NCBI GenBank assembly: GCA_964019135.1
Contig: OZ025249.1
Span: 18,377,088 to 18,441,087, forward strand
Direction: 5' to 3'
Origin: Arenicola marina
Lineage: Eukaryota; Annelida; Polychaeta; Arenicolidae
Length of the DNA stretch: 64,000 nucleotides
The notes beneath the pieces were generated by a model, which was not told the DNA's origin, did not search any database, and worked only from the letters and a program-made list of their open reading frames with translations. Below, one piece after another: positions 36,001 to 39,000 of the stretch (positions within the stretch are counted from its first letter, which is position 1; every line of letters begins with the position of its first letter). A program made the position numbers and the translations under genes.

Positions 36001-39000
36001 ACAACCACACAACCTGGGTCATACTCAGCCCTAGTTAGTGACAACCACACACCCTGGGTCATACTCAGCCCTTGAGTGAATATAGATGTATCGTAACCAC
36101 CTTCGAGCTGTGTTAAATTAGCATAATATATATATATATATAGATCTAATTCTTTTAGTAAAACTATGGACGCATTCGTATTCTTTAATGGGGAGGCATG
36201 TAGGTAACATAGCTGTGTATAGAATTTGAATGAAGCACTGGTTTACATGATTGATGAACTTCCCCCGCCTTACAGGGACCATGGACCCCAAGGACTTCCT
36301 GGCAGAGGCTCAGATCATGAAGAAGCTACGTCACCAGAAGCTGATCCAACTGTATGCCGTGTGTACTCAGGACGAACCCATCTATATCGTCACAGAACTG
36401 ATGAGGAATGGCAGTCTGCTCGAGTACTTACAAGGTGAGCGCAGGGCAGTCTGCTCGATTACTTACAAGGTGAGCGCAGGGCAGTCTGCTCGAGTACTTA
36501 CAAGGTGAACGCAGGGTAGTCTGCTCGAGTACTTACAAGGTGAGCGCAGGGCAGTCTGCTCGAGTACTTAGAAGGTGAGCGCAGGGCAGTCTGCTCGAAT
36601 ACTTACAAGGAGAGCGCAGGGCAATCTGCTCGAGTACTTACAAGGTGAGCACAGGGCAGTCTGCTCGAGTACTTACAAGGAGAGCGCAGGGCAATCTGCT
36701 CGAGTACTTACAAGGTGAGCGCAGGGCAGTCTGCTCGAGTACTTACAAGGTGAGCGCAGGGCAGTCTGCTCGAGTACTTACAAGGTGAGCGCAGGGCAAT
36801 CTACTTGAGTACTTACAAGGTGAGCGCAGGGCAGTCTGCTCGGGTACTTACAAGGTGAGAGCAGGGCAGTCTGCTCGAGTACTTACAAGGTGAGCGCAGG
36901 GCAGTCTGCTCGAATACTTACAAGGTGAGCGCAGGGCAGTCTGCTCGAGTATTTACAAGGTGAGCGTAGGGCAGTCTGCTCGAGTACTTACAAGGTGAGC
37001 GCAGGGCAGTCTGCTCGAGTACTTACAAGGTGAGCGCAGGGCAGTCTGCTCGAGTACTTACAAGGTGAGCGCAGGGCAGTCTGCTCCAGTACTTACAAGG
37101 TGAGCGCAGGGCAGTCTGCTCGAGTACTTACAAGGTGAGCGCAGGGCAGTCTGCTCGAGTACTTACAAGGTGAGCGCAGGGCAGTCTGCTCGAGTACTTA
37201 CAAGGTGAGCGCAGGGCAGTCTGCTCGAGTACTTACAAGGTGAGCGCAGGGCAGTCTGCTCCAGTACTTACAAGGTGAGCGCAGGGCAGTCTGCTCGAGT
37301 ACTTTCAAGGTGAGCGCAGGGCAGTCTGCTCGAGTACTTACAAGGTGAGCGTAGGGCAGTCTGCTCGAGTACTTACAAGGTGAGCGCAGGGCAGTCTGCT
37401 CGAATACTTACAAGGTGAGCGCAGGGCAGTCGTCTCGAGTACCTTCAAGGTGAGCGCAGGGCAGTCTGCCCGAGTACCTACAAGGTGAGCGCAGGGCAGT
37501 CTGCTCGAGTACTTACAAGGTGAGCGCAGGGCAGTCTGCTCGAGTACTTACAAGGTGAGCGCAGGGCAGTCTGCTCGAGTACTTACAAGGTGAGCGCAGG
37601 GCAGTCTGCTCGAGTACTTACAAGGTGAGCGTAGGGCAGTCTGCTCGAGTACTTACAAGGTGAGCGCAGGGCAGTCTGCTCGAATACTTACAAGGTGAGC
37701 GCAGGGCAGTCGTCTCGAGTACCTTCAAGGTGAGCGCAGGGCAGTCTGCTCGAGTACCTACAAGGTGAGCGCAGGGCAGTCTGCTCGAGTACTTACAAGG
37801 TGAGCGCAGGGCAGTCTGCTCGAGTACTTACAAGGTGAGCGTAGGGCAGTCTGCTCGAGTACTTACAAGGTGAGCGCAGGGCAGTCTGCTCGAATACTTA
37901 CAAGGTGAGCGCAGGGCAGTCGTCTCGAGTACTTACAAGGTGAGCGTAGGGCAGTCTGCTCGAGTACTTACAAGGTGAGCGCAGGGCAGTCTGCTCGATT
38001 ATTTACAAGGTGAGCGCAGGGCAGTCTGCTCGAGTACTTACAAGGTGAGCGCAGGGCAGTCTGCTCGAATACTTACAAGGTGAGCGCAGGGCAGTCTGCT
38101 CGAGTACTTACAAGGTGAGCGCAGGTCACGCTGTGCGCTTGTCAGATTCTGGGAGGACGGGGATATGGAGTTGATTTACCGAAACTTAGACTGAAGCACC
38201 ACATCGTTGAGGTGTAGCGGTCTCTGGTATCCCTGTTCGGTGTTTATCTTACTGATGCCAGCTTGGGTGTTAGCTGATCCCACACGCTGTCCCTGTGATC
38301 ACTGTTTGTCGTGCTGATCTCACTCGGTCTTCCTGTGATCCCTGTTTGCCGTACTGATCTCACTCGGTCTTACTGTGATCCCTGTTTGCCGTACTGATCC
38401 CACTGACTCCCTGTGATCCCTGATTGCTGTACTGATTCCACACGCTTTCCCTGTGATCCCTGTTTGCCGTACTGATCCCACTCGCTCTCCCTGTGATCCT
38501 AGTTTGGCGTACTGGTCCCACTCGCTCTCCCTGTGATCCCTGTTGGCCGTACTGATCCCACTCGCTCTCCTTGTGATCCCTGTGTGTCGTACTGATCCCA
38601 CTGGCTCTCCCTGTGATCCCTGTTTAACTTACTGATCCCACTGGCTGCGCCTGTGATCTCTGTATGATGTACTGATCCCACTCACTGTCGATGTGATCCC
38701 TGTTTGACGTACTGATCCCACTCGCTGTCCATGTGATCCTTGCTTGACGTACTGATCGAACTCACTGTCCCTGTTATCCCTCTTTGATGTACTGATCCTA
38801 ATCACTCTCCCTGTGATCCCTGTGTGATGTACTGATCCCACTTGCTGACCCTGTGATTCCTCTTTGACGTACTGACCCTACTCACTGTCCCTGTGATCCC
38901 TGTGTGACGTACTGATCCCATTCATAGTCGATGTGATCTCTGTTTGACGTATGATCCCACTTTCTGTCGATGTGATCCTTTTTGTAAGTACAGATCCAAC

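Follow-up and report, generated by a model that had tools for sequence, protein, structure and literature searches.

A 49-copy splice-donor minisatellite at an exon border of a polychaete Src42A-type kinase gene

How a splice donor is chosen among many identical sites is an old question, which has usually been put to artificial duplications. The genome of the polychaete Arenicola marina raises it in a natural setting, since the end of a coding exon in a Src42A-type tyrosine kinase gene is repeated in tandem, donor included, into the intron that follows. We ask which of these donors is likely to be used, what the others would do to the kinase, and why the array is there. The window analyzed is a stretch of 64,000 nucleotides with 44% GC and no N letters, located on a 61.5-Mb contig.

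The array and its host gene

TRF reported a 35-bp tandem array at 36410-38125 with 49.0 copies, 0% indels and a score of 3124. Cutting the sequence every 35 nt from 36410 onward gave 49 head-to-tail units that stay in register through 38124, and the 35 nt that follow mismatch at 23 places. The repeat unit, GGCAGTCTGCTCGAGTACTTACAAG|GTGAGCGCAG, joins the final 25 nt of exon 5 to 10 nt of intron. Both approaches thus bear out the original prediction of a 25 + 10 nt unit present in 48 extra copies with no slip, but its end point at 38119 falls 5 nt short. It had also been stated that every unit keeps both an AG and a GTGAGC donor. This holds for the AG, found at the end of 49/49 units, and not for the donor: GT is retained in 46 of the 48 extra units and the exact strong site AAGGTGAGC (AAG|GTGAGC) in 44 of them (47/49 and 45/49, respectively, when unit 1 is included). 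Since only 46 of the extra units have a GT, not all 48 can be usable donors.

Unit 1, the exon copy, recurs unchanged in 20 of the 48 extra units, and the whole array carries 44 substitutions in 1715 nt, which represent 20 distinct changes. Units 27-33 and units 35-41 form near-identical blocks that differ at 2 of 245 sites, and the block order of units 25-49 was matched in strength by 45 of 2000 shuffled orders, which suggests that the array probably grew in part by multi-unit blocks. In the 867-Mb assembly, an exact 31-mer covering the exon end and the donor has 24 occurrences, every one of them inside the array, although a diverged second copy would escape such an exact search. No ORF of at least 90 aa overlaps the array on either strand, and neither Rfam families nor tRNA genes were found in the window.

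The 524-aa kinase has an SH3 domain and the start of a kinase domain according to Pfam, and a Src-like match spans residues 30-518. Its named best matches are Src42A proteins, the others being unnamed products of molluscs, nemerteans and Owenia. In the kinase tree it is placed among Lophotrochozoa near Owenia and unnamed entries, with no small group well supported. The mitochondrial COX1 of the assembly has 91% identity to that of Pilargis wolfi, and other annelids, many of them Phyllodocida, come next. The gene had been described as a Src kinase; it is indeed of Src type and intact, and its closest named relatives make it a Src42A-type rather than a vertebrate Src kinase. The protein junction created by donor 1, EYLQ-GKGR, recurs as E[YF]LQGKG[RK] in 26 of the 40 relatives read, while the other 14 differ there. 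Three relatives (P0027, P0030 and P0064, with LQVSAGKG, LQQGKG and LQGKGTGKGR) have extra residues at the exon 5-6 junction, as if variably spliced. Because exon 5 measures 159 nt and is flanked by phase 1 introns on both sides, its skipping would stay in frame at the cost of 53 residues.

Tandem repeats account for 86% of intron 4 and 93% of intron 5, and the three further arrays in these introns (units of 38-40 bp; Table 1) have no donor consensus. Several other features were observed in the window. Two long open frames lie at 647-7070 (+), the first with a CUB domain (647-3316) and the second (3654-7070) with LDL-receptor A, leucine-rich and seven-helix parts. The latter resembles a relaxin-type LGR receptor, is intronless over 3.4 kb, and has a top-ranked database match with an identity of only 28% over 28% of the frame. 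Dispersed repeat copies that are 76-89% alike, probably transposable elements, are found at 11958-12624, 18655-19928 and 22067-22786, and at 45747-45936 and 54651-54839. Overlapping tandem repeats of 8, 23, 31, 62, 92 and 124 bp occupy 20184-20589, the 8-bp unit being GCGAGATC.

Exon-edge arrays at other exons

Twenty 10-kb samples (L011-L030), taken at even spacing along the 61.5-Mb contig C2, have a mean content of 24.3% (median 14.5%, range 0-86%) in minisatellites with at least 10 copies, a figure that holds for this contig. The 200 kb contain 38 loci of this class, present in 16 of the 20 samples. To our knowledge, such a load is very high for an animal. The donor pattern searched for is absent from the array consensuses of these 20 samples.

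The survey of exon borders covered 56 exons from two unrelated families. They comprise 20 tyrosine-kinase exons, mostly short partial matches, hand-picked among 159 matches with the sequence still unseen, and 36 myosin-head exons, corresponding to ranks 1-40 of 77 matches minus ranks 28, 32, 34 and 35. A donor was flagged when 8 nt or more of the match fell inside an array that extends at least 25 nt beyond it. This rule flagged 9 of the 56 donors, one of which (L079) was removed by eye, the array beginning after the donor as read. At the other 8 of 56 exons, an array starts in the exon, includes the exon end and the donor, and runs downstream (Table 1). These cases sit on six contigs of 38-51 Mb (C4, C7, C10, C11, C12 and C19), and the Src array is one instance of a recurrent exon-edge amplification in this genome.

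No array crosses the acceptor in any of the 55 testable exons (L038 lacks an upstream flank; L036 has 113 nt upstream and L049 has 54 nt downstream). Intron-only arrays within 150 nt were found at 11 acceptors and, with L079 included, at 9 donors. In a comparison framed post hoc, with the pattern already seen, and based on a small, partly linked sample of two families, donor and acceptor crossing differ with Fisher p-values of 0.006 for 8 cases (also with 55 acceptors) and 0.003 for 9. Under the same reservation, weighing crossing arrays against intron-only ones no more than 150 nt away (8:9 at donors, 0:11 at acceptors) gives p = 0.0097, and counting the paralogues L033 and L036 once (7/55) gives p = 0.013. 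L062 and L082 are apparently in one gene, so the eight cases are not fully independent. A genome-wide count of the donor pattern yielded 747 + 532 matches against 270 + 78 in the reversed control, but nearly all of the roughly 100 places listed belong to one array on C1, so this count is one of units and not of loci.

Some of the surveyed exons have peculiarities of their own. L085 has a GC-AG intron donor (CAG|GCAAGT) inside its boundary array. In L069 (reverse strand, 423-658 in exon orientation), which presumably encodes a myosin VII, the 37-bp units carry a C-rich tract, in most cases an ACAG, some 12 nt of exon and a donor, and resemble complete micro-exons. In the receptor kinase of L033, which we take to be a discoidin-domain receptor, the donor array (read together with L052) leaves the frame open for 705 nt beyond the first donor motif, so that some later donors could yield in-frame additions. 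The searches also revealed five equal-score kinase domains about 8.5 kb apart on one strand of C5:5402464-5437356, a recent tandem gene array. At C4:367768-371306 and C4:380231-383133, myosin-head exons covering profile positions 590-640 and about 110-154 are repeated in series, a pattern that mutually exclusive exons of a muscle myosin would be expected to give. On the small contigs C504, C465, C330, C443, C652, C497 and C684, the in-frame stops of kinase matches are solely TAA or TAG, as is the case in ciliates with these codons assigned to glutamine; the contigs are possibly ciliate contamination of the assembly.

Table 1. Positions in the window of the kinase gene, its arrays and altered donors, and properties of the donor-crossing arrays at surveyed exons
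Feature	Position	Strand	Description	Basis
Src42A-type tyrosine kinase gene	24051..40921	+	8 coding exons, 524 aa, intact	exon borders hand-placed from frame and GT/AG
Coding exons	24051-24463, 29121-29242, 29553-29716, 34248-34416, 36276-36434, 39345-39523, 40177-40333, 40710-40921	+		hand-placed
Coding exon 5	36276..36434	+	159 nt, intron phase 1 both sides	exon chain, 524-aa translation
Coding exon 6	39345..39523	+	normal partner of donor 1	exon chain, 524-aa translation
Unit 1	36410..36444	+	exon 5 end (36410-36434, 25 nt) and initial 10 nt of intron 5; authentic donor AAG|GTGAGC	
48 extra 35-bp units, in register	36445..38124	+	GT in 46, AAGGTGAGC in 44, AG end in all	
Unit 6, donor lost	36610..36611	+	GA for GT (GAGAGC)	unit alignment
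Unit 8, donor lost	36680..36681	+	GA for GT (GAGAGC)	unit alignment
First in-frame stop on read-through past donor 1	36506..36508	+	TGA; open frame ends at 36505	sequence letters
Two adjoining intronic arrays of intron 4	34485..36074	+	38 bp x 22 and 40 bp x 19; exon 4 donor excluded	TRF
Second, intronic-only array of intron 5	38274..39297	+	period 40, 26 copies, 77% matches; ends before acceptor	TRF
L033, L036			paralogous receptor kinases; periods 84-103 bp; 9 and 14 exact donor motifs	TRF
L046			four copies of GTGAGTATAC	
L062			period 62 bp, 99% alike; array extends past fetched stretch	
L069			period 37 bp, 6 donors	
L082			period 119 bp, 2 donors; array extends past fetched stretch	
L084			period 42 bp (about 37 + 5 nt), 5 exact donors	
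L085			period 85 bp, GC donor; array extends past fetched stretch	

Consequences of donor choice and explanations of the array

The predicted frames differ sharply between the first donor and all others. Donor 1 gives the 524-aa kinase, donor 2 a frame of 359 aa, and the other 47 positions, including units 6 and 8 that lack a GT, frames of 366 aa. As originally predicted, any donor but the first would thus truncate the kinase, and the stop expected within about 75 bases of read-through is present as a TGA that begins 72 nt beyond the exon. Among the later positions, the distance from the stop to the last exon junction was obtained for eight (units 2-8 and 49); in each of them the stop is upstream by more than 300 nt, and by the usual rule a stop that far upstream marks an mRNA for decay. 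The array donor is the best U1 match in the gene (-9.6 kcal/mol compared to -5.2 to -7.8 for the other six donors), and the decoys are therefore not weak.

The explanation that we favor, with a probability of about 0.77, is that the array is an exon-edge minisatellite that arose by neutral tandem amplification and is tolerated since the first donor is used. A 35-bp segment over the exon 5/intron 5 border would have been duplicated by ordinary minisatellite turnover, be it slippage, unequal exchange or gene conversion, as a minisatellite-rich genome may occasionally capture an exon border. It would then have expanded to 49 copies, the later ones partly via duplications of multi-unit blocks. The spliceosome would join the first, exon-bordering donor to exon 6. 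This donor is transcribed earliest and matches the exon length that the upstream acceptor defines, while the later donors would lie inside the intron and be spliced out along with it. The array would be selectively near-neutral because the first donor would be the one joined to exon 6. Any transcript made from a later donor would be frameshifted or stopped and should be destroyed. The exon copy would be fixed by coding, and the remaining units would drift and be homogenized. The tolerance reading is supported by the lack of indels in 49 units, by the many units identical to unit 1, and by the fact that an intact kinase is obtained from donor 1 only. The junction sequence shared with 26 of 40 relatives, the minisatellite load of the sampled contig, the recurrence at 8 of 56 exons, the donor letters conserved no more than by chance and the published cases described below also speak for it. 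A consideration that counts against first-donor use comes from in-vitro work, which reportedly found that, with U1 bound to several strong donors at once, the donor closest to the acceptor can prevail; this would favor unit 49. The strength of the decoy sites likewise counts against it.

The one-sided survey is likewise compatible with such tolerance. A copied acceptor would be placed upstream of the real one, be transcribed earlier and insert extra sequence, often with a frameshift, and selection would remove it; purging of this kind would explain why arrays cross donors only. A mutational bias to G-rich intron starts would be equally able to yield the donor-only pattern. It is possible to go further and to propose that donor-specific exon-edge amplification hits about one intron in seven genome-wide, and that its one-sidedness reports a splicing rule by which the first-transcribed site wins. 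Downstream donor copies would then be harmless because the authentic donor comes first, and upstream acceptor copies would be purged because such decoys come first. We put this generalization forward tentatively and consider the odds to be against it.

An alternative that we regard as improbable is that the decoys form a regulatory device, in which a tunable share of the transcripts splices at later donors, gains a premature stop and is degraded, so that array length would be a knob on the kinase level. Such a device would find its parts in place, because every position except the first gives a truncated frame, the stops of the eight later positions named above lie far enough upstream of the last junction, and 46 decoys offer a GT in a strong site. 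However, the donor letters show no excess conservation: 3 of the 20 distinct substitutions fall inside the 9-nt donor, which covers 9 of the 35 positions of the unit (one-sided p = 0.20), so that conservation beyond chance is not detectable in this test of little power. The folding of the repeat is ordinary when compared to tandem repeats of a shuffled unit (z of -0.7, -1.1 and -1.4 for 2, 4 and 6 units), and donor 1, with a predicted accessibility of 0.002 versus 0.000-0.068 for the decoys, is not more open than they are; structurally, the authentic donor and the decoys are alike. An RNA structure hiding the decoys was a candidate on the basis of z-scores of -3.6 (four units) and -3.1 (array 5' end) against plain dinucleotide shuffles, but this signal was gone under the unit-shuffled control. 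Moreover, comparable arrays occur in other kinase genes as well as in myosin genes, as a mutational habit of this genome would lead one to expect. As far as can be judged from sequence, neither donor letters, folding nor accessibility carry a sign of selection for the decoys. The original prediction had offered two alternatives, and the sequence evidence favors a strict preference for the first donor, whereas control of the kinase through decoys and nonsense-mediated decay finds no support in it. The recurrence of such arrays in the genome and their published counterparts were not part of that prediction.

Alternatively, selection might retain the donors as U1 snRNP sites in series, which would shield the long transcript against premature polyadenylation or reinforce the definition of exon 5. 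The retention of GT in 47 units and of the exact strong site in 45 would suit this idea, but a conservation signal is absent, and the neighboring arrays of introns 4 and 5 have no donor consensus, which indicates that the bulk of the repeats has no need of donors. We therefore judge this explanation to be very unlikely.

There is very little to suggest that the copy number or the whole array is an assembly artefact: tandem repeats are a common site of assembly error, but many units carry private variants, the block repeats are structured, the window has no N, the exact locus is single and lies on a 61.5-Mb contig, like arrays exist at eight other exons, and the total of 1.7 kb is far below long-read length. 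It is similarly hard to believe that the units are mini-exons or recursive splice points, intermediate in the birth of an intron or exon. An AG precedes each 25-nt exon piece, a donor follows most of them, and most units contain a CUUAC stretch that resembles a branch point. A model of intron birth from such repeats has been published for lancelet globins (PMC3087553). Yet the spacers measure only 10 nt, no pyrimidine tract precedes the AG, a 25-nt insertion breaks the frame, and any inner unit would require an intron that extends over several others.

This Src intron would be useful as a natural experiment, in which nearly identical donors compete to be chosen. The kinase gene is a natural one and 45 of its 49 array sites agree in all letters over 9 nt, so a count of junctions per donor would answer the question of donor choice directly. 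The donor-only bias (8/56 versus 0/55 testable exons), if upheld genome-wide, would make such repeats informative about how the order of splice sites affects their use. For annotation, introns of this type invite false exons and truncated models.

Comparison with known systems

A minisatellite with multiple donors and a 12-nt unit at an exon border was reportedly described in 1995 in a human interferon-induced gene (G1P3/IFI6), where the first few donors are said to be used and to add in-frame residues. In the Src array, by contrast, positions 2-49 are all predicted to truncate the protein (359 or 366 aa), and in-frame isoforms from later donors are thus absent from the predicted frames.

A likeness is also found in lancelets, where the term mirage stands for a tandem duplication of an intron/exon border. 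The units measure 10-72 bp in Adh3, and the data suggest that regular splicing is undisturbed by mirages in Adh3 and globin genes (PMC3087553) and likewise in Adh and TnC (PMC3902484). In the same sources, mirages are described for Adh3, the globin genes BflGb6 and BflGb9, troponin C and PGBD5, and they share with the Src array a minisatellite-like duplication over an exon-intron border in which many units retain splice signals; the 35-bp unit is within the Adh3 range. The Src array combines exon and intron parts (25 + 10 nt) in all 49 units and keeps AG and GT in many of them. It differs in copy number, with 49 near-identical copies compared to 6 and 3 in two BflGb6 haplotypes, and in the borders that are amplified, which are donors only in our polychaete survey and both borders in the lancelet globins. 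Although mirages made amphioxus a first candidate for the host, the kinase tree and COX1 identify it as an annelid and not a cephalochordate, and we regard the array as mirage-like in its working and claim no descent from the lancelet ones.

A further parallel is exon stuttering in the chicken (Hron et al. 2026, PMC12954441). There, exon edges with a donor or an acceptor are copied into introns that simple repeats fill. The phenomenon concerns 236 introns in 115 genes, with 1-44 copies (median 4), an exon piece with a median of 36 bp, and more than 90% of the sources located at most 1 base from the border. The Src array shares with it an exon edge with a splice site that is copied through a repeat-filled intron, its source adjoining the border and 93% of intron 5 being tandem repeat. 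Exon stuttering, however, belongs to dot chromosomes, where it affects 3.4% of the introns (190 of 5,572), and involves donors or acceptors, whereas the polychaete arrays were found at 8 of 56 exons on six contigs and involve donors only; the two screens differ in method, and these rates are therefore not directly comparable. Nor does the Src array have a dot-chromosome setting, given the 44% GC of the window and its 61.5-Mb contig, with the other cases on contigs of 38-51 Mb.

Within annelids, our search of the open-access literature turned up no earlier report of exon or splice-donor copies within a boundary array of this type. For earthworm metallothionein, minisatellites in intron 1 and exon 4 duplications in one clone are described (PMC12783039). 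The kind of array described here was thus already known, and what is new, as far as this literature shows, is the phylum, the number of copies (48 extra) and the donor-only bias. Placed beside the lancelets, the chicken and the human gene, the annelid case suggests that exon-edge amplification is general wherever minisatellites flourish.
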